Shown piece after piece: positions 2,085 to 55,414 of a DNA stretch of 64,000 nucleotides. The stretch lies in the NCBI GenBank assembly GCA_015075305.1, contig JABTUS010000006.1, positions 1 to 64,000 of the forward strand, written 5' to 3'. The notes under the pieces were generated by a model that was not told where the DNA came from, did not search any database, and saw only the letters and a program-made list of their open reading frames with translations. Origin of the DNA: Opitutaceae bacterium. Its GTDB lineage: Bacteria; Verrucomicrobiota; Verrucomicrobiia; Opitutales; Opitutaceae. The position numbers and the translations under genes were made by a program. Numbering within the stretch: the stretch's first letter is position 1; every line of letters begins with the position of its first letter.

Positions 2085-5000
2085 CGCGCGACGCCCTGAA
2101 GTCCCTCCTTCAATCGAACTATAAACGAGAGCGCTGGCTTGTGCTGCTGCACGACCTGCTTCCCACGACGCAGGCATTCGGGGCTGCGAAAGACCTGAGC
2201 CTGGACGATGCCTCCATCGCCTCGGCGTCGCAGATTGCGCGCATTCCGCTCGCCGGAGACCGGACTGTCGCCGTGCTGGAAGTGCGTGTCACCGGGCAAG
2301 TGGACTTGCAGCGCAACCGCGTGGGCCTGCGCAACCTTGTCTCCCGTTTCATCGGACAGGAGGGAGCCGATGCCGTGCTTGCCTTCTTCGTAGGAGATGC
2401 GCCCGACTACCGCTTCTCCTTCGCCGCCCGCACCAACCGCTTCACCGCCGACGGCCAGTTGGAGCAGAACGAGACCGCGCCCCGCCGCTACACCTACCTG
2501 TTTGGTCCGGGGCTGCCGTGCCGGACGGCGCTGGAGCGACTCGAACTGCTCCGCTCCCTCGGCGCGCGCGCCCAGCTCTCCGACCTGATCGAGGCCTTCA
2601 AGGTCGAGCCGCTCTTCAAGGAGTTCTACCGTGACTACGGCCGTGTGTTCGAGGCGGTGGAAAACCATGTCCGCCCCTCGCTTTCGGAAAAGGAGCGGCT
2701 TCGCCTCTTCACCCAGCGCCTTTTCAACCGGCTCATGTTCCTTGCCTTCGTCGAGCGCAAGGGCTGGCTCCGCCTCGGTCAGCGCAGCGATTATCTCGCA
2801 GCTCTCTGGAACGACTACAAGGCCCGGCTCCGCACCTCGCCCGCCTCGGTCAACTTCTACGCCGACCGTCTTGTCCCGATCTTCTTCGAGGTGCTCAACC
2901 AGCCCGATCGCCCCGCCGACTCGGTTGATCAGCGAATTGGTTTCGTGCCATACCTCAACGGCGGTCTGTGTGAATATGCTGAAGATGGCACCGACCGCCT
3001 GCCAGCCCTCCGCGTACCCGACGAGGCCATCGCCCTCATCCTCGACTCCGAAACCGGTTTGTTCTCCCGCTACAACTTCACCGTGGCGGAGAGCACGCCG
3101 CTAGAGATCCAGGTGGCGGTCGATCCCGAAATGCTCGGCAAGGTGTTTGAGGAACTCGTCACCGGCCGCCACGAGCAGGGCAGCTACTACACGCCGAAGC
3201 CCATCGTCGCCTTTATGGCGCGCGCCGCCCTGGTCGAGCACCTCGCCGACCGCTGCCGCGCGGAATCACGCGAGGCGGTGGAGAAATTCGTTCACGACGA
3301 CGACGCCTCGGCCCTGCGCGACCCCGAGGCCGTTCATCGCGCGTTGCTCACAATCAAGGTGTGCGACCCCGCCTGCGGCTCCGGCGCCTACCTGCTGGGC
3401 ATGCTGCACGAGCTGCTCGACCTCCGCACGCGCATCTTTGCATCTCGTCAGAAGCCCGACCCCGAGAATGCCTATCAACGCCGCCTCCAGATCATTGAAC
3501 GCAACCTCTATGGCGTCGACAAGGATGCCTTCGCCGTCAACATCGCGCGCCTGCGCCTCTGGCTCGCTCTGGCGGTCGAGTTTGAGGGTCCGGTTCCGCC
3601 GCCACTGCCTAATCTCGATTTTAAGATCGAAGTGGGCGACGCACTCGCCGCCCCCGCGCCGCAGGACATCTTTCAACGCCCGGCGGTGGAGGAATTCCGC
3701 GACAAGAAAGCGGCCTTTCTCCGCGCCCATGGCGAGGAGAAGGCCAGGCTGAAGGCCGAGCTGGAGCACATACGGGCGGACCTTGCGCTTTGGCAGCAGG
3801 CGGACCTGTCCGATCACGGCTTCAACTGGGCCGTGGAGTTTGCGGAGGTGTTTCTGCCCGATGCCGAAGAGCGCGCGCTACTCGGCGAGTTGCTCGCGCA
3901 GGAGGATGCATCCTCGGCAATTCAGTCAGGCGGTTTCGACATCATCGTGGCCAATCCGCCCTACGTGCGACAGGAGCTTATTAAGGAGCAAAAGCCGGTT
4001 CTCAAAAAACGGTTCCCTGAAGTTTTTACGGGTGTTGCGGATCTCTACGTTTACTTCTTCGCCCGCGCCCACGAGTTGCTCCGACCCGGCGGCGTGGCTG
4101 CCTTCATCTCGTCCAACAAATGGCTCCGCGCTGGCTATGGCGAATCGCTCCGTCAGTACTTGCTCGATGGGCATGCTTTTCACCTTGTGATGGATTTTGG
4201 CGAGCTTGGCGTTTTCGACACCGCCGCTACCGACGCGGCAATTTTTATCTGGCAGAAACTGCCACGCATCGCGAGTCCGACCGCGTGGGCGATGGTCAAG
4301 GACTTAAATCTCTGCTACAGCCAGGGTGTTCGCCACCATTTTCAGCTCCTCCGTATCGATGTTCCCGCCAATCAATTCGGCAAGGGCAACGCGCGACTAG
4401 CCTCGATAGCCGCTGCTGGGTTGCGGAAGCGGATGGAAAGTAGGGCTACATTACTTCGAAATTACATTGGCGGTGAGATTAAGTGGGGACTTAAAACAGG
4501 GCTAAATGAGGCGTTCGTTGTCGACAGACTTAAGCGCAAACAGCTCGTCGACGAAACGCCCCTAGCGGACGAGATCATTCGGCCGATCCTCGCAGGCGAC
4601 GATGTGCGCAGATATGAAACACACTTCAGGGAGACTTATATAATTCTCACGAAGATTGGGGTGCCGATCCATAGGTACACCTCGGTTCTACGGCACTTGG
4701 AACCTTTTGAGGAAAAAGCTAGGAAGCGCACCGACCAAGGTCAGCACTGGTGGGAACTGAGAGCGTGCGTTTATTATGAAGAATTTCTGAAACCGAAAAT
4801 CGTTTATCCGGAGATCGGAAAAGAGGCTCGTTTCGTTTTGGAGACGGAGGGACGGTATCTAAACAACAAGTGCTTCTTTTTGCCATCCGCAGATTGGTTT
4901 CTTCTCGCTGTTCTCAACTCCGCATCGGTGTTTGCCTACTTGAAAGAGGTATGTGCGACGCTTGGCGATAAAGATGATGGCGGACGCCTGGAATACCGCG

Positions 5001-7674: not shown

Positions 7675-9864
7675 CTACTTCTCTCGGTCCGGCTTGAAAC
7701 CGATGGCGTTCAGCGCGGGGGCGATCTCGGGGTTGGCCATGAAGTTTTTCCACACGAGGCCCGTGCGGTGGTTCTCGATCATGACCACCGTGGGCGGCTG
7801 GTTCAGCACCATGTAGTCCTCGTCGAACCAGTTCTCCGTCTCGTTGAAGCCGTCGTGGAAGCCGTAGGTGCCCCAGATTCGGTCGCCGAGGTCGCGATAG
7901 AAGTGCCGGAGGGCGGCCATCGATTCTTCGGGCGTGTAGGGCATCGAGGCGAGCGATGCCATGACGTTGATCGTGCCGTTGTCGGAGCGCGGCAGCGCCT
8001 TGGCGCCGCCTGCGTTGACGCCGGCCGAGCGTCCCCAGCAGTCGGCGCCGTAACCGGTGAATCCCCGGGGGTTGTCGATGGCATAGGCGTGCTGGATCAG
8101 CGCAATCGCGCGGTTGTTCGTGAAGTAATTGGTGTAGGCGTCGCGAATGCCGCGCGGGTCGAAGCCCATGAACGAAAAATGAGTGAAGAACAGTTCTCCA
8201 CCGCCGGCCTCGCCGACCTCCAGCTTTATGCCGTGGTAGCTGTGGCCGTTGGTGAAGTGATCGCCCTGCGTGGTCCAGCCCCGGCGGTATTTCACTGCCA
8301 GGTCGGACCTCCCGGCCCAGCCGGTGTGCCACATCGAGGCCGGCACGGGGTGTGTGGGCGAGGCAATGGCAAGCAGGTAGACGATCAGTGTCTCGTTCCA
8401 ACCGATCAACGGGTGGTTGATGTAGAAGTCGTGATCGGGCGACCAGTGCCAGGTCAGCACGTCGCTGCCTTTCTGTCGATACCAGTCCCACTCGACCTCG
8501 CGCCAGAATTGCGTGGCGGTGTCGCGGACCTCTCGCTCGGCCGGCGTGTCATGATTGAAATACTGGCGCGCGGCCAGCAGGCCCTGGATCATGAAAGCCG
8601 TTTCCACGAGGTCGCCGCCGTTGTCGTACTTGCCGAAGTAGTCGAGTGTCCGCCCGGTCTCGCCGTCGAGGAAGTGCGGCCACACGCCGTGGAACCGGTC
8701 GGCCTTGGCGAGAAAACGCACGATCTTGAGCATGCGCTCGACACCCTGCTCGCGCGTGATGAACCCGCGGTCCACGGCGACCATCAGTGCCATGACGCCG
8801 AAACCGTTTCCACCGAGCGCGATCAGGTTCTCGTCGCCGGGCAGGATTTCGGGTGCCATTCCCGCCACGGGATGAGCCGCCTCCCAGAAGTACCGGAAAC
8901 AGCCCTCCTGCACCATATCGAGCAGCGCTGCGTCGGTGAACGGCCGCGTGGCGGCGCTGACGGCTGCGGACAGCTTCGACTCGTTTCCGGCGAGATCAAC
9001 GGCGCTGACCTTGTAGTGGAAGGTCCGTCCGGGGGCGCCGACGAAATCAGGAAAGCGCGTCCAGTCGCCGCGCTGCGTCGCGATGGGGACGTAATCCGTG
9101 CCATTTTCGGACCGATAGATTCGCCAGGCGAGCAGGTCGTCGTCGCTGGACGCCTGCCAGTGCAGGTCGCAGTGCCGCTCGTAACCACGGGCTGTGAGTC
9201 CAATCGGCGTGGCGGGCGGGCTCGTGTCCAAGGGTGCGGCACCGTCGATGAGCATGAAGTCATCCAGGTAGAGCGTGTGCTCGATGCCGTCGTCCAATCC
9301 CGAGATGAAGGTGAGGTTCACCGCATCGCTGATTTCGAAGACACGGTCCCGTGTGCCGCGGTAGAGGCGGTTGTCGCGGGTGATCGGGATTTTCACGCGC
9401 ACCCACTGTTTCGCGGGCAAACGCTCGGCGCCGGAGACAAGCGGGAACGAACTCGATCCCCGTCCGCTGGGCTCCTGCATGAACACGCGGGGGGAATTCA
9501 GTTCCGTCAGCTCGGTGTCGGACCAGCACCAGAAAGCGAGGGTGTCACCGATCAACTGGAACTTCCGCCAGTCGCGCCCGGGTTGGTTGATTTTCACGCT
9601 CCAATCGCCGCCGGTGACGGATTTCCAATGCAGCTTCAGCGCGTTGGGCGGGCTGACAAAGCGGTCGGTCGCGATCGGCAGGCGGCCGTTGACGAGTTCA
9701 AGCGTGCTCGGTGCGACGACCTTTGTCCGGGTGTTGGAGTAACCGCCGGTGGCGGCGGGTGCGTTGGCGAACAGGACATGTCGGTCGAACGACTCGACGG
9801 CTGAAGCGGTGGCCGACAGGAGCAGAACGACGGGAGTGAGAAGCAGGAAGCGGCTGGATTTCAT
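7675..9864 (-). CDS. Secreted GH144-type endo-beta-1,2-glucanase (glucoamylase-like domain)
   Basis: The 729-residue protein starts with a signal peptide (MKSSRFLLLTPVVLLL, cleavage near ASAVES). A beta-rich domain follows to about residue 235, with SWSV-type glucan-binding flavour but no clear family. Next is a fibronectin type III domain at about 240-330 (IGLTARGYERHCDLHW). The catalytic domain from about 335 to the end carries EGCFRYFWEAAHP, NGFGVMALMVAVDRGF and FFTHFSFMGFDPRGIRD, all characteristic of PF10091/COG5368, the family that defines GH144 endo-beta-1,2-glucanases. The start is the ATG directly before the signal peptide; the frame upstream lacks one. It is last in the operon after the GPH symporter and would cut beta-1,2-glucan outside the inner membrane into oligomers. 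The specificity is inferred from family and neighbours. Confidence 0.85.
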   Translation of the reverse strand: MKSSRFLLLTPVVLLLSATASAVESFDRHVLFANAPAATGGYSNTRTKVVAPSTLELVNGRLPIATDRFVSPPNALKLHWKSVTGGDWSVKINQPGRDWRKFQLIGDTLAFWCWSDTELTELNSPRVFMQEPSGRGSSSFPLVSGAERLPAKQWVRVKIPITRDNRLYRGTRDRVFEISDAVNLTFISGLDDGIEHTLYLDDFMLIDGAAPLDTSPPATPIGLTARGYERHCDLHWQASSDDDLLAWRIYRSENGTDYVPIATQRGDWTRFPDFVGAPGRTFHYKVSAVDLAGNESKLSAAVSAATRPFTDAALLDMVQEGCFRYFWEAAHPVAGMAPEILPGDENLIALGGNGFGVMALMVAVDRGFITREQGVERMLKIVRFLAKADRFHGVWPHFLDGETGRTLDYFGKYDNGGDLVETAFMIQGLLAARQYFNHDTPAEREVRDTATQFWREVEWDWYRQKGSDVLTWHWSPDHDFYINHPLIGWNETLIVYLLAIASPTHPVPASMWHTGWAGRSDLAVKYRRGWTTQGDHFTNGHSYHGIKLEVGEAGGGELFFTHFSFMGFDPRGIRDAYTNYFTNNRAIALIQHAYAIDNPRGFTGYGADCWGRSAGVNAGGAKALPRSDNGTINVMASLASMPYTPEESMAALRHFYRDLGDRIWGTYGFHDGFNETENWFDEDYMVLNQPPTVVMIENHRTGLVWKNFMANPEIAPALNAIGFKPDREK

Positions 9865-9890
9865 TGAAATGGATGCGACGGCGGGCAGGG

Positions 9891-11315
9891 TCAGGCGGCG
9901 GGCGATGGAGTGCCTGCGGCCTTGCGCTGGTCGAGCAGGGCCTTGACCTCGTAGGCGCGCCGCTCGGTGAGCGGATAACCGGCCAGCAACCACACACCCG
10001 CGAGGCAGAGCACCGGCGGCAGACCGATTTCCCAGATGCGCAGGTTGAGCAGGGTTGCGTCGCTCTGCGTCGTCGCGCCCTCGACGAAACCCGTGTAACG
10101 CTGCAGGTAGCCGCTGATGACCGTCGCGATCGATACGGCGACCTTCCACCACCAGTTGTAGACGGCGAAGTAGATGCCCTCGCGACGGATTCCGGTGGCC
10201 AGTTCGTCCTCGTCGCAGATGTCCGCGATCATCGCGTTCACGAGTGAAAAGGCGAAGACCATGCCCAGAGAAAGGAAGCAGGTCGGGATCACGGTCAGGT
10301 AGGGTGCCGCGGGGTTGTAGCAGACGATCTTGGTCAGATTGCCACCGATGATCAGTCCGAAGGCGAGCAGCACGGTGAAACGTTTGCCGTGGCGCTTGGA
10401 GATCCATGCCATTGGCAGCGCTCCGGCGATGCCCACGACCGCCCAGAGCGTGCCGTTGACGGCCATGACTTCCGAGGCCTTCTCGGTGTGGCCGTCGAAC
10501 AGGTAGAAAATCTGGATGTAGTTGCTGAAGCCCATCACGAGCTGGAACGCGACGATCAGGAGCACGAAGGCGGACACCAGCCGCAGGAAAGCGCGGTTGC
10601 GGTAGGTGGCTTTGAAGCTCTTGACGATCGACACGCGCGGCTGCCGGCTCACCTGTTTGATTTTTCCCTCCCTGCAGACCAGCGCACACCACATCGCGGC
10701 GCCCGTCAGGATCACGCTCATGCCGAGACAAACCCATTTTATGCCATTGACCGTGTCACCGCCGAAGACCGGGCGGTTGGCGAGGAAATAGACCCACGGC
10801 AGCGTGAGCGCGCCGATGTTGCCGATGAAGCTGGCGAAGGCGAACAGGTTGGTTTTCTCGTGGTAGTCCTCGGTCATTTCCATGCCGAGCGCACCGTGGG
10901 GGATCGAGTAGACCGGCACGACGGTGTAGAAGAACAGCGAGGTCACCACGAAATAGGCGAACATCCACTCCTTGCTCCAGTTCCGCGGAACCGTCCAGAG
11001 GAGCCAGAAGGCGATGCCGAGCAGGACGCCGCCAACGACGAGGAAGGGAATGCGCCGCCCGTAACGGGAGCGGAAGTTGTCGGAGAAGTTGCCGATCAGC
11101 GGGTCGATCAGGGCATCCCACAATCTTGGAAACGCCTGGGCGTAGCCGATCCAGATCGTGCTGACGCCGAGGCCGACGATGTAGACGAGGTTGGTGAGCT
11201 GGACCACCGAGTTTACGGCGACGACAGTGACAATCGCGCCCATGCCATAGGCGATTTTCTGGGAAAGCGGGATGCGGTCGGCAGCGGCGGTGACATGGGC
11301 GGACGGTGGGTTCAT
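9891..11315 (-). CDS. GPH-family (glycoside:cation) MFS symporter
   Basis: A 474-residue inner-membrane transporter with about twelve hydrophobic helices. The N-terminus (IAYGMGAIVTVVAVNS) and the loop WDALIDPLIGNFSDN followed by SRYGRRIPF are the GPH/MelB-family signatures. These proteins import glycosides with Na+ or H+. The ATG overlaps the TGA of the GH3 gene (ATGA at 11312-11315), so the two are translationally coupled. In this locus it most likely carries sophorose and short beta-1,2-gluco-oligosaccharides into the cytoplasm for the GH94 and GH3 enzymes. The substrate is inferred from context only. Confidence 0.9.
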   Translation of the reverse strand: MNPPSAHVTAAADRIPLSQKIAYGMGAIVTVVAVNSVVQLTNLVYIVGLGVSTIWIGYAQAFPRLWDALIDPLIGNFSDNFRSRYGRRIPFLVVGGVLLGIAFWLLWTVPRNWSKEWMFAYFVVTSLFFYTVVPVYSIPHGALGMEMTEDYHEKTNLFAFASFIGNIGALTLPWVYFLANRPVFGGDTVNGIKWVCLGMSVILTGAAMWCALVCREGKIKQVSRQPRVSIVKSFKATYRNRAFLRLVSAFVLLIVAFQLVMGFSNYIQIFYLFDGHTEKASEVMAVNGTLWAVVGIAGALPMAWISKRHGKRFTVLLAFGLIIGGNLTKIVCYNPAAPYLTVIPTCFLSLGMVFAFSLVNAMIADICDEDELATGIRREGIYFAVYNWWWKVAVSIATVISGYLQRYTGFVEGATTQSDATLLNLRIWEIGLPPVLCLAGVWLLAGYPLTERRAYEVKALLDQRKAAGTPSPAA

Positions 11316-13591
11316 GGGCGGGGTGTTTGGGGTGTTGGCGGGGCTGGCGGGCGATGGCGACCGGATGCGGGAGGGAAGGGGGAGCGCACGCGGAAAGAAG
11401 CGCTCTGTCCGCCAGCACTCAGGATAATTTCGCCGGATTCAAGCACAGGCTGGCCGTCGGCGTCGGGAAAGGAAAGATCCCGCGCCGGCTCGACCACGAA
11501 GCGGAACACCCGACTCTCGCCCGCAGCGAGGGTGGCCTGCTCGAAATGTTTCAGTTGACGCAACGGTCGTGTGATGGAGGCGACCGGGTCGCGGATGAAC
11601 CAGAAGACGGTCTCAATACCCTCGCGTGATCCGGCGTTGGTGACAATGACCTCTGCGGCGAGCCGATCGTCGCTCGAAACTTCATCCCTATTCAGGCGCA
11701 GAGGGCTGTAGATGAAGGTCGTGTAGCCCAGTCCATGGCCGAACTCGTAGAGCGGTGTCGCGGGGACATCACGGTACGCACCCATGTCTCCGGCGCGCGC
11801 TCGCGGCCTCATGTTGTGGTAGAGCGGAATCTGCCCGGCGATGCGCGGCCAGGTGACCGCCAGCCGGCCCGAGGGATTGCGCCGGCCGAACAGCATGTCC
11901 GCGAGCGCCGCACCGGCCCGGCTGCCGCCGCACCAGGCAGCGACGACGGCGTTGAGGCGCGGCTCAAACTCATGGATGTCGATCGGTCGTCCGGAAACAA
12001 TCACGAGCACCACCGGCTTGTCCGCGCCGAGCACCCCGCGGATCAGTTCCTCCTGGCGACCCGCAAGGCGAAGCGTCGCGCGCGAGGCGTTTTCACCGCT
12101 CATTGAGGCATCCTCGCCGACACACAGGACCGTGAGGTCCGCCCAATTCGCTGCGGCAAACGCGCGTGCAGGATCGTCCTGCGGATCCCCCTGGATCGAG
12201 CAGCCGGATTCGACGCATAGCTCGACGCCGACGGCCAGGCGCTCGCGAATCGCGTCGGCAATCGATGGGGTCTCCTGCGATTTCCCTTGCTGGGCCCAGC
12301 AACCGAGCAACGCACCGCTCTCCGCGGCAAGCGGGCCGACGACCGCGAGCCGGCGGACCTCTCTCAGCGGGAGCACGCCGTCGTTCTTGAGCAGGACAAT
12401 GGATTTCGCCGCGAACTCCTCGGCCAGGGCGAGGTGCGCAGCGCTCGGCGCTGCGCCGGTCAGCGGGCTTGCGTCCGCGTAGGGACGTTCGAACAAGCCG
12501 AGTTCGAACTTGAGTCGCAGCATGCGGCGGACCGCATCGTCGACGCCGGCTGGTGCGAGACGACCATCGCGCACCAGCACAGGGCTGTGTTCGCGGTAGA
12601 GCCCGGAGGCCATGTCGATGTCCACTCCGGCTGTCAGCGCCTTCCGTGCGGCGTCGGCACCATCGGCGGCAAAACCCTGGCTCATCAATTGTTCCACCGC
12701 GCCCCAGTCGGAAACGACGACGCCGGTGAAGCCCCAGCGGCGTCGCAACACCTCGGTCAGAATGTGCGGATTCGCACTCGCGGGCAAGCCGTTGAGGTCG
12801 TTGAACGCGCTCATGACGGTGCGCGCGCCGGCGCGGATTCCCGCCTCGAACGGCGGCAGGTGCATTTCCCAAAGCGTCTGTGGATGGATTCCGCTGGACG
12901 CGTAGTCGCGTCCGCCCTCGGAGGCGCCGTAGCCGACGAAGTGCTTCAGGCACGCGGCGACCGAGGATGTCTCGCCGGGGTTCGCACCTTGGAAGCCGCG
13001 CACGGCGGCGGCGGCGAAAACGCTCGCGGCATGGGGCGACTCACCGAATGTCTCGGCGATGCGGCCCCAGCGGGAATCGACGCAATGGTCCACCATCGGC
13101 GCGAAGGTCCAGTCGATCCCATGCGCTCGCGCCTCGGTCGCGGCTTGGGCGCTGGCGCGCTCCACGAGAGCGGGATCCCATGCGCAGGCCTGGGCAAGCG
13201 GGATCGGCGTGATCGTTCGGTAGCCGTGGATTACATCGGCAGCGAAGATCGCCGGGATGCCAAGACGAGACTCCTCGACGGCGCGGCGCTGCGCAGCGTT
13301 GCGCACGGACAGGATCGTTTCCGGTGGCCCGCCGACAATGTACGAGCCGTAGGTGGGTCGCATCTTGTCGGCCGACGACGAGAGATTGTTGGCGTTGATG
13401 TCGCCGAGGCCGCATTGGTGCAACTGATCGAGTTTTTCTTCGAACGTCATCCGCCCTAGAAGATCAGCGATACGTTCATCGACGGGAAGGTCGGCTCGGC
13501 GGTAGGCGGGTGGAACGGACGCGGTCTCGACCGAGGTGCCTGAGGAGGTCGCAGGCGTTTCCCTGGCCTTAGCAGGTGAGACCGGGTTCAT
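11312..13591 (-). CDS. GH3 beta-glucosidase, cytoplasmic
   Basis: A 759-residue glycoside hydrolase family 3 enzyme. The catalytic nucleophile is Asp295 in GVVVSDWGAV. The N-terminal TIM-like domain includes the KHF substrate loop (ACLKHFVGYGA) and RDYAS, the middle alpha/beta sandwich has SIVLLKNDGVLPL, and the C-terminal part ends in a fibronectin III-like domain. No signal peptide is visible from the ATG at 13591, which I prefer over the upstream ATG at 13660 because that would overlap the GH94 gene and add unrelated residues. Lack of export fits an enzyme hydrolysing imported sophorose, like Listeria Lin1840, which is encoded beside a GH94 phosphorylase. It shares four bases with the downstream symporter gene. 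Confidence 0.9.
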   Translation of the reverse strand: MNPVSPAKARETPATSSGTSVETASVPPAYRRADLPVDERIADLLGRMTFEEKLDQLHQCGLGDINANNLSSSADKMRPTYGSYIVGGPPETILSVRNAAQRRAVEESRLGIPAIFAADVIHGYRTITPIPLAQACAWDPALVERASAQAATEARAHGIDWTFAPMVDHCVDSRWGRIAETFGESPHAASVFAAAAVRGFQGANPGETSSVAACLKHFVGYGASEGGRDYASSGIHPQTLWEMHLPPFEAGIRAGARTVMSAFNDLNGLPASANPHILTEVLRRRWGFTGVVVSDWGAVEQLMSQGFAADGADAARKALTAGVDIDMASGLYREHSPVLVRDGRLAPAGVDDAVRRMLRLKFELGLFERPYADASPLTGAAPSAAHLALAEEFAAKSIVLLKNDGVLPLREVRRLAVVGPLAAESGALLGCWAQQGKSQETPSIADAIRERLAVGVELCVESGCSIQGDPQDDPARAFAAANWADLTVLCVGEDASMSGENASRATLRLAGRQEELIRGVLGADKPVVLVIVSGRPIDIHEFEPRLNAVVAAWCGGSRAGAALADMLFGRRNPSGRLAVTWPRIAGQIPLYHNMRPRARAGDMGAYRDVPATPLYEFGHGLGYTTFIYSPLRLNRDEVSSDDRLAAEVIVTNAGSREGIETVFWFIRDPVASITRPLRQLKHFEQATLAAGESRVFRFVVEPARDLSFPDADGQPVLESGEIILSAGGQSASFRVRSPFPPASGRHRPPAPPTPQTPRP

Positions 13592-53891: not shown

Positions 53892-54358
53892 GACATATAA
53901 CTGGATAACGGTATCCAATTTATTTGTCTGTGCAGGGGAGTCGAGTCCCAATCGGGGAGCATCCGTGAGAAGGGACGCCGAAAAACCAGGTTGCGGAGCA
54001 GTGCTGGCTTGCCAGGCGTGTCCCCTCGGCATGACAAAGCATGCCCGTCCAACGGAGGGGGAGGGGCGCAGGCCGCAAACTGCATTCGCGTGATTGCCTT
54101 GGGACGGAATTCGGTGAGAGTCGGGCTGTGATCGCGTCGATTGCCTTTCGAAATTTCGGTATGATCCGGAGTGATAGGTGACAGATTGTCCATGGTGATG
54201 GGTTAGCACAGGGGGGGTATGATCCTCCCAAGCCAAAGGGGTCAAACTTCACCTTTCGCACTTTTTGAAGACCAAACACCATCGATAATCTTAACGGCAT
54301 GAAAGAGTCATTCTCAATGGATAGACCCTAACGTTTGTGGGGTTCGAGATGACCATGA
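53892..54358. other. 467-base stretch without a gene
   Basis: Upstream region of the VPDGG protein gene. The only structure I see is the small palindrome TGGATA-ACGG-TATCCA at 53902-53917, close enough to the start to overlap a ribosome site or operator. Short open frames here have no coding character. Confidence 0.4.
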
Positions 54359-54587
54359 ATGCTGCAGGAGGGCCCGGCATATGCGGACCATGGTGACGCC
54401 ACGTACCGCCAATTTGCCTACAACGGACGCAGGGAATTGACCGCGGGCATCGAATACCTTGGCACCAATGTGGCGAGCCAGGCCGCGCCGCTGCCAGGTC
54501 GCTGCCATGAATACGCCCACGACTCCATCGGGAACCGTCAGTGGTCGAACAGTACCGGCGTGAGCGGGCTGCGTGACGAAGCAAACT
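54359..54587 (+). pseudogene. RHS/YD-repeat protein remnant
   Basis: A short in-frame stretch reads YRQFAYNGRRELTAGIEYLG, then PLPGRCHEYAHDSIGNRQWS and NSTGVSGLRDEANS. The pattern Y-N-x-R-R-E-L-T followed by G-R-x-x-E-Y-A-x-D-x-I-G-N-R is the YD-repeat consensus of RHS proteins. Only about 70 residues remain, without start, core end or toxin domain. The match stops exactly where the palindromic repeat begins (54588), suggesting truncation at the repeat. RHS proteins are ~1,500-residue shells around toxin cargo. Confidence 0.65.
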
Positions 54588-54767
54588 CGAGAGAAATGTG
54601 CCGCCCCTTCAGGGCTCTCTGTTTTCGGTTCACCCGTGAACCCATGGCGTTGCCATGGGCTGGGAATATGGCGCCCCTTTGGGGCTCCCGATTCCGACTC
54701 AGTCGCTCACCTCGAACCCATCGCTTCGCCATCGGCAGGGGATGTATCGCCCGGTTGGGGCTGAGGC
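54588..54767. repeat. Palindrome-rich repeat block A
   Basis: Two or more degenerate units of the ~68-base repeat described at 54940. The first (54588-54663) matches 54940-55015 over 76 bases with one difference. Each unit contains a CCCCTTCAGGG/CCCCTTTGGGG-type hairpin and a CCATGGCGTTGCCATGG palindrome. The second and third units (54664-54767) are decayed. Short open frames across the block are not real genes. Confidence 0.8.
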
Positions 54768-54939
54768 ATGTCAGTGCAACTTGAGGTCACATTGTGCGAT
54801 ACCGATGGGGAATTGGGCCGGCGGCGTCTTGTGATCGGCGTCGCCTGGGCACGACAGAGCGCGCCCCTCCATTTTTTTATGAGTGCCGAAAATCGATTAA
54901 TGCGAGCGCTGCACGGTGCCTTGGGCTGTGGAGGAAGTT

Positions 54940-55240
54940 CGAGAGAAATGTGCCGCCCCTTCAGGGCTCTCTGTTTTCGGTTCACTCGTGAACCCATGGC
55001 GTTGCCATGGGCTGGTGATATTGCGCCCCTTCGGGGCTTCGCATTCCGACTCACCCCGAAACCGTGGCGTTGCCATGGGCTGGAGATATTGCACCCCTTC
55101 GGAGCTTCGCATTTCGGCTCACCCCGAACTGATCGCGTTGCCATGAGCTGGGGGAATTGCGTCCTTTCAGGGCTTCGGATACCCGCTCACCAGAAACCCA
55201 TGGTGTTGCCATGGACTGGGGATAAATCGCCCCGATGCTC
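54940..55240. repeat. Tandem 68-bp palindrome-rich repeat array, block B
   Basis: Four tandem units at 54947-55015 (69 bases), 55016-55083, 55084-55151 and 55152-55219 (68 each), plus a partial one to 55240. Each has the order: ATATTGCGCCCCTTCGGGGC-like hairpin, CTTCG, ACTCACCCCGAA-like spacer, then a CCATGGCGTTGCCATGG-like palindrome and GCTGG. Units are diverged by up to about a third, so the array is old except for the first unit, which is nearly identical to one in block A. All units point the same way. I recall similar sequences scattered in other PVC-group genomes, often mis-annotated as small proteins, but know no described function. Confidence 0.85.
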
Positions 55241-55414
55241 GCTTCCGGCGCGCTCTCATGAAACGCTTGCTTCGCCCTGTCTTCCTTGAATATCCACTTC
55301 CCAGTGGTTGCCCCGACTGATCAGGTGAAAACAAGCCTCCTCGTGCTGATCGTTACCGGCCCATCCGCACGCCAAGGCAGGACGGGACTGATACGAAATG
55401 GAGCAAGACGGGCG

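Follow-up and report, generated by a model that had tools for sequence, protein, structure and literature searches.

The DNA considered here is a stretch of 64,000 nucleotides, hereafter the window (positions 1 to 64,000, forward strand, of contig JABTUS010000006.1 in the Opitutaceae bacterium assembly GCA_015075305.1; its genome is called G000 below). It contains an array of tandem repeats built of small hairpins, and the question raised by this locus is what such an array is: a mobile repeat resembling a repetitive extragenic palindrome (REP), a structured RNA or a recombination hotspot, the three options of a preliminary description of the sequence, or a simple local duplication. The array is very probably the relic of a small single-stranded DNA (ssDNA) transposon of the HUH, Y1 type, and the repeats of the kind filed in Rfam as RF01687 very probably represent the DNA of such transposons together with their non-autonomous derivatives. 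The copy in the window consists of one-sided half-arms of the form A1-(B-A2)n, arranged in tandem and fused to a broken Rhs-like gene; the evidence for its origin comes mainly from other genomes, in which the hairpins stand as mirror-image arms around a transposase gene, tnpA.

Structure of the repeat array

Two blocks of hairpins occupy positions 54590-55247 and hold six units of two hairpins each, in the order B-A. Tandem Repeats Finder (TRF) reports a 68-bp array at 54990-55224 (3.5 copies, 77% matches), and a repeat search gave three copies at spacings of 68 and 68. The six units were placed on the + strand, with starts at 54634, 54710, 54986, 55054, 55122 and 55190, by a covariance model, R2, trained on 39 units of G000; since five of these come from the window (unit 6 was not in the training), the R2 scores of the window are partly set by construction. 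Units within a block are separated by 12-20 nt and the blocks by 220 nt. Each block begins with an additional A hairpin, A1, that the preliminary description had not separated out, followed by repeats of B-A2. The features of the array are as follows.

54603 to 54615, + strand: hairpin A1 (inner) of block 1, by direct reading; counterpart of the tnpA-adjacent hairpin in relatives
54634 to 54690, + strand: unit 1, hairpin B 54641-54659 and A2 54673-54685; R2 77 bits, RF01687 29.1 bits at 54641-54686
54710 to 54766, + strand: unit 2, hairpin B 54717-54735 (two broken pairs) and A2 54749-54761; R2 67.6 bits
54763 to 54940, no strand assigned: inter-block segment, dispersed in the genome; 12 of the 20 other stretches examined contain BLAST matches
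54955 to 54967, + strand: hairpin A1 of block 2, from the 91% identity of 54932-55053 to 54580-54701
54986 to 55042, + strand: unit 3, hairpin B 54993-55011 and A2 55025-55037; R2 76.4 bits
55054 to 55110, + strand: unit 4, partly degenerate; R2 60.6 bits
55122 to 55178, + strand: unit 5, hairpin B degenerate; R2 62.7 bits
55190 to 55247, + strand: unit 6, hairpin B good, final hairpin A broken; R2 35.4 bits

In good copies hairpin B reads CCCATGGC-GTT-GCCATGGG, and hairpin A is GCCCC-TTC-GGGGC or a variant of it. Direct reading reveals two broken pairs in hairpin B of unit 2 (CCCATCGC...GCCATCGG) and mismatches in the hairpins of units 4 and 5, in agreement with the earlier remark that sequence changes in several units keep only part of the pairing. 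The array itself is borne out by TRF, the repeat search and R2, and the fixed order and spacing of the hairpins hold among the units that R2 placed. A copy described as almost identical between the blocks is indeed present; it is longer than had been stated (122 nt in the repeat search) and only 91% identical. When folded as ssDNA and compared with shuffled sequences, the stretches that open the blocks reached z values of -2.2 and -2.6 (the two strands of one) and -3.1 (the other), while a more degenerate stretch, 55010-55112, folded no better than its shuffles (z -0.36). A CRISPR array was ruled out, the 68-bp period being filled by hairpins and linkers of one family with no unique spacers. 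The attC sites of integrons were also considered on account of the hairpins, and no integron cassette layout was seen at the array, although no dedicated attC test was made.

The B-A core matches the Rfam family RF01687, "Acido-Lenti-1 RNA", which has the same two hairpins, B then A, at the same spacing. The model aligns over its full length (1-46) at 54993-55038 and 54641-54686; unit 3 gives the top RF01687 match of the scanned stretch (33.4 bits, E 1.6e-5), and both it and unit 1 score under the family's gathering cutoff of 37 bits. The view that no description of the element had been published in this group is therefore not entirely accurate, as its two-hairpin core was already on file.

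A transposase gene between mirror-image arms

Among 38 genomes, comprising G000 and its nearest relatives, 10 have R2 matches, in a patchy distribution and with 1 to more than 100 matches each. An open frame of 150 aa, tnpA, has the repeats on both its sides in two relatives, G007 and G008; a protein search found this gene in eight of the 38 genomes, six of which have R2 matches. The layout [A2' B' A1'] tnpA [A1 B A2] was seen in 10 of the 11 loci from relatives (L094-L104); hairpin sequences vary from one of these loci to another, yet the two arms of a single locus resemble each other. Mirror arms were also seen at 15 loci picked from other genomes, other phyla included, and a plasmid of Persicobacter (Bacteroidota) has three-hairpin mirror arms at its tnpA with quite different sequences that R2 hardly detects; in relatives, other genomes and plasmids alike, the arms were judged by eye.

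An alignment of 21 TnpA proteins from relatives and other genomes (A4) has the invariant residues D54, H55, H57, W95, Q96, Y115, Q119 and H123, with I116 and H122 in at least 90% of the proteins. Proteins of other genomes score 65, 61 and 66.9 bits against the IS200 family NF033573 (cutoff 55) and match PF01797 as well. TnpA is related in sequence to the TnpA of ISDra2 and IS608, and its predicted structure, with a mean predicted local distance difference test (pLDDT) score of 86, is closest to ISDra2 TnpA bound to left-end DNA; the REP transposase 4er8 ranks lower among the structural matches. By its motifs DHxH, WQ and YI--Q--HH, and not by the authors' profile, the enzyme is assigned to subclass 1.2 of TnpA_Y1, for which the original classification gives DH[IV]H, WQ and Y---Q--HH (Quentin et al., 2018; PMC6006769).

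The repeats and this gene occur together across the phylum. In 240 genomes, RF01687 was found in 64 and a subclass 1.2-like tnpA in 52 (scored at E<=1e-20 with no more than 16 candidates taken from each genome; usually 1-6 matches in a genome), with both in 45 and neither in 169, an odds ratio of 57 (p 4e-26); p values in this comparison are too small because the genomes are related and not independent.

They also occur side by side. A protein-only scan, taking one genome per species, supplied 80 tnpA loci, the best 80 of 191, whose sequence records name Verrucomicrobiota, Planctomycetota, Chlorobiota, Armatimonadota, Chloroflexota, Acidobacteriota (Terriglobia) and others; the set includes G007 and G008 again (L110, L174) and look-alikes (L128, L130). 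An R2 match lay within 250 nt on at least one side at 54 of the 80 loci and on both sides at 35, counting matches to E of about 0.0055 and leaving out six that overlapped in antisense or were A-only (L124, L116, L115, L123, L122, L162). R2 density was 3.43 per kb at 0-200 nt from tnpA and 0-0.12 per kb beyond 1 kb. A mirror layout predicts minus-strand matches upstream and plus-strand matches downstream, and the closest upstream match is a minus-strand one at 33 of 48 loci, the closest downstream match a plus-strand one at 29 of 41. The Rfam scan covered 40 of the 80 loci; RF01687 reached its own cutoff in eight, each with a match within 150 nt of tnpA. In several loci the model matches lie on the arms about 40-60 nt from the ends of tnpA. 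A second set comprised 20 tnpA loci of 12 genomes, hand-picked with RF01687 positions already known and without taking every copy per genome; 13 of these loci had an R2 match (E<=0.01) within 250 nt and 10 an RF01687 match (E<=0.01), nine of the latter within 150 nt of the gene. One further sample, of 52 loci, was chosen because most of its loci had matches. At 23 of 79 loci the similarity of the two arms, compared in inverted orientation, lay above the 99th percentile for pairs drawn from different loci; a control further out from the gene gave 0 of 57. Two matches to the abiF RNA (RF03085) were noted at 4143-4265 in the flank of one tnpA locus (L126).

One genome, G029, holds gene-less copies, which are made up of such arms set back to back. 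Besides a single tnpA copy it carries numerous palindromes, about 260 bp long and with AAACCACA...TGTGGTTT-like ends; BLAST gave 132 matches when both strands were counted. Aligned with the gene-less copy L077, the two arms of the gene-bearing copy agree at 103/114 and 96/118 positions; aligned with one another, they agree at 98/117. The element ends TGTGGTTT recur in G029. Many of the palindromes (L190-L219) lie inside a TTAGGGCGTGTGATCAATTAA-like repeat, which is perhaps their preferred target.

DNA or RNA hairpins

That the repeats are a structured non-coding RNA, each copy an RNA gene or a processing unit, is how RF01687 is filed: Rfam types it as a small RNA (sRNA) gene, a putative RNA of unknown function, and in the source table it is marked 'y' under 'RNA?' (Weinberg et al., 2010; PMC2864571). 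Strong covariation also speaks for an RNA. In 127 distinct units, 98.3% of cells are paired and 13 of 13 pairs have double changes, a result reached by 0 of 500 shuffles, so that the compensatory changes asked about in the preliminary description do exist in the repeat family. As the hairpin structure was set by hand, the pairing counts lean toward it; this is addressed by slid-partner controls, in which pairing falls to at most 62.5%. RNAalifold, applied to the 39 units of G000, returned four pairs and no covariation, and the resulting model, R1, was dropped; the failure is probably due to a sub-family with a broken B stem that has been amplified in this genome.

The kind of mismatch tolerated points away from RNA. 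RNA stems tolerate G-U pairs, and selection on RNA should favor G-U over A-C. Among 1602 cells of the 127 units, the non-Watson-Crick combinations are 9 G.T, 20 A.C and 7 other, and in the own-genome set there are 13 G.T and 16 A.C. G.T pairs thus show no excess over A.C mismatches, which is what DNA able to fold on either strand should give; the count was made without a yardstick from a known RNA family measured alongside, and any bias from R2 runs against the low-wobble result, since G-U counts among the standard pairs of the model. Where DNA and RNA hairpins both covary, they might be told apart by the number of wobble pairs relative to that of the mirror mismatches. The RNA account also fits poorly with copies in both orientations and as mirror pairs, with mirror arms around a Y1 transposase, and with co-occurrence with one transposase clade. 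Taken together, this leaves an RNA improbable, and of the three options first proposed the REP-like mobile repeat fares best. The outcome that would have refuted the preliminary description, a single locus lacking covariation, is not what was observed.

Spread and neighborhood in G000

The 653-bp stretch of the array has 60 BLAST matches in G000, itself included, and R2 has at least 108 matches at E<=0.01 and at least 119 at E<=0.1, these counts being lower bounds as about 150 candidates were scored per genome. The copies are solo, tandem or in mirror pairs: 90 of the 119 matches (E up to 1.5e-4) form 47 clusters: some are single units, some are tandems on one strand, and nine are mirror pairs whose units lie 94-102 bp apart. 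The mirror pair of L060 reads A2' B' A1', a short center, then A1 B A2. Along one contig, G000:C3, similar copies recur at about 203.4, 206.8, 210.9 and 242.7 kb, partly covered by L060; three of these were recognized as mirror pairs. The array is bordered in the window by two features.

54300 to 54579, + strand: fragment of an Rhs-like gene with a YDSIGNRQWSNSTG motif, truncated at the array and likewise dispersed in the genome
55228 to 55342, - strand: remnant of a different Y1 gene (clade of the gene at G000:C8:44345), 90 of 115 columns identical

The second of these bears on a classical REP/RAYT explanation, in which the repeats were moved by the other Y1 clade of G000 (L012 type, REP_Tyr_transpos-like). 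This clade has four matches in the genome, its remnant abuts the array, and an intact gene of the clade scores 58.5 bits against NF047646 (REP_Tyr_transpos-like; cutoff 80). The flanks of these genes say otherwise: none of the five Y1 loci of G000 (L009-L013) has an R2 match in its 1.5-kb flanks; these five leave out a fourth L012-type match, on C10. In the 240 genomes the clade (present in 80) shows no association with RF01687 (odds ratio 1.07, p 0.88). At 30 control loci of the clade, from 17 RF01687-bearing genomes including the 12 of the tnpA set, only two weak R2 matches were found, the first lying in the gene itself and the second about 520 nt from it, giving 0 of 30 within 250 nt, a figure set by hand from these two matches. 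On flanks, co-occurrence and control loci, the REP_Tyr_transpos-like genes of G000 were rejected as movers, and this explanation is very unlikely. At one of the loci, L013 (G000:C2:41025), the Y1 domain is in frame with a long surrounding open frame which, judged by eye, looks like a restriction or methylase subunit; the domain could be an insertion that preserved the frame.

The first feature bears on another rival, that palindrome-rich DNA next to Rhs-like genes simply underwent local and segmental duplication in which a transposase never took part. The fragment, which we take to be Rhs from its YDSIGNRQWSNSTG motif, is matched, wholly or in part, at 31 places spread over 13 of 20 other stretches; some of these places lie within long open frames (L044, L046), and the short open reading frame of the window within it has no Pfam match. 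Eight matches of a longer query stop exactly at 54579, and the copies that share this end base are perhaps displaced Rhs ends. In twelve other places of the genome the fragment and the beginning of the array occur together, so segmental copying accounts for some of the spread within G000. The array has been copied along with the Rhs-like fragment and the inter-block segment, and the sub-family with the broken B stem has been amplified. Duplication fits the recent history of the window. It does not account for mirror arms at tnpA in other phyla, and it leaves the nine mirror pairs of G000, with their spacing of 94-102 bp, unexplained; as a full account it is contradicted by the mirror arms, the co-occurrence and the arm matches in G029, and has little chance of being right. 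The inter-block segment also contains part of a further palindrome, GCGCGCCCCTCC, of which L060 has two copies in inverted orientation at about 3660-3730.

Group II introns, in public descriptions found near Acido-Lenti-1, would have kept or spread the hairpins as landing sites for hairpin-directed insertion, and RF00029 (82 of the 240 genomes) is indeed associated with RF01687 (odds ratio 4.0, p 6e-6) and one intron of G000 lies in an Rhs-like fragment beside an array, but the association is far weaker than that of tnpA and is gone among tnpA genomes (odds ratio 0.94), though 5.4 among those without tnpA, so that introns were rejected as the cause, a negligible prospect, and kept as a minor link only. 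The intron in question (L049, about 9530-11465, on G000:C1) has a reverse transcriptase, is apparently inserted in the fragment, and adjoins a short inverted repeat, GTATTCGAG...CTCGAATAC, with the repeat array about 300 nt away.

Proposed mechanism

The transposon origin favored here can be put as a sequence of steps. TnpA of subclass 1.2 would bind the hairpins as ssDNA and cleave beside them with its tyrosine, moving its own copy as well as gene-less derivatives in which the arms stand back to back. The order and pairing of the hairpins would be maintained by recognition by the enzyme and not by RNA folding, and RF01687 would correspond to the B-A2 part of the transposon arms and not to an RNA. 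In G000 the enzyme has probably been lost, leaving a relic; afterwards ordinary duplication and recombination would have enlarged the array of the window and dispersed it along with the Rhs-like fragment. It is possible, though doubtful, that subclass 1.2 forms a separate kind of ssDNA transposon, with three-hairpin mirror ends and excisable from either strand, the gene-less palindromes of which seeded the Acido-Lenti-1 families across many bacterial phyla. As both strands carry the same ends, such an element could leave either strand, free of the strand rule of IS200/IS605.

Several observations weigh against this origin. The repeat-associated transposase sought since the preliminary description is present in relatives; no subclass 1.2 gene was detected by protein searches in G000, a 97.6% complete assembly, so movement there is history at best. 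Repeat and gene are also found apart: 19 of the 64 RF01687 genomes have no tnpA match and seven of the 52 tnpA genomes no RF01687, and in the 38-genome set two of the eight tnpA genomes (G011, G026) lack an R2 match and four of the 30 without tnpA, G000 included, have one or more. No R2 match was found at 24 of the 80 tnpA loci among the matches used, or within 250 nt at seven of the 20 in the second set, and L103 has short hairpins only. The test of arm similarity is mixed, with direct orientation topping the same percentile in 28 of 79 loci because repeats also accumulate in tandem. The association with introns shows that general mobile-element load contributes something. A more distant, IS200-like tnpA on a Bernardetia plasmid (L271, 1501-1968; 40% identical, DHLH motif) has different, short GCAGCT-type palindromes, possibly another enzyme-repeat pair. 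The subclass label depends on motifs. Finally, no pair of empty and filled sites was found and no target rule emerged; the copies of G029 lie within another repeat.

Comparison with known systems

The likeness to RF01687 is that of the hairpins themselves. The family differs in being filed as RNA and in covering two of the three arm hairpins, without the mirror layout or the transposase. Two orphans would in this way be joined: an RNA family without a function and a transposase subclass without listed cognate hairpins. If this is true, annotations of RF01687 may be transposon ends, for example those behind a suggested regulatory role beside Tannerella proteases, and the enzyme and its DNA would form a compact and directly testable pair.

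The transposase resembles published subclass 1.2 in its motifs, its length of about 148-150 aa and its nearness to IS200 TnpA. The classification lists the subclass as REP 'no', generally without terminal IS200 structures and mostly in Cyanobacteria and Bacteroidetes (Quentin et al., 2018; PMC6006769). The loci described here differ in their three-hairpin mirror arms and in lying in Verrucomicrobiota, Planctomycetota and other phyla; that the published absence of REP-like structures does not hold at these tnpA loci is a new point.

As to IS200/IS605, the TnpA proteins of ISDra2 and IS608, whose structures have been solved on end hairpins, are related in sequence and fold. These elements have one hairpin per end and are not known to have mirror-image arms. 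With REP/REPIN and RAYT the repeats share palindromes around a Y1 gene, gene-less mirror pairs and clusters. REP/RAYT systems have their repeats on both sides of a cognate Y1 gene of their own genome; such a gene was seen in relatives and not found in G000. The GT[AG]G foot of REP/RAYT is not at hairpin B, the 3' side of which has C in 95% and T in 96% of units (AG on the other strand), then G in 67% with the others varying; in contrast to RAYT, the transposase is IS200-like (above the NF033573 cutoff), and there are three hairpins per arm.

The nearest published idea is that of TIRYTs and TIRtrons, Y1 genes with flanking inverted repeats of which some form dispersed families (Di Nocera et al., 2013; PMC3733652). 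The likeness lies in this combination. They were rejected as an identity since the protein class differs: in the published classification, 20 of 26 TIRYTs belong to subclass 2.1, with helix-turn-helix tails, six to 2.2 and 2.5, and none to 1.2 (Quentin et al., 2018; PMC6006769). A literature search, mainly of articles outside subscription and without supplements (among them the texts available of PMC2864571, PMC13298647, PMC10059132, PMC3733652 and PMC6006769), gave no link of RF01687 or subclass 1.2 to such repeats. Y1 enzymes with dispersed flanking repeats are already known from TIRYT/TIRtrons and REPIN/RAYT; what appears to be new, within the literature searched, is that subclass 1.2 goes with three-hairpin mirror arms, and those arms with RF01687.
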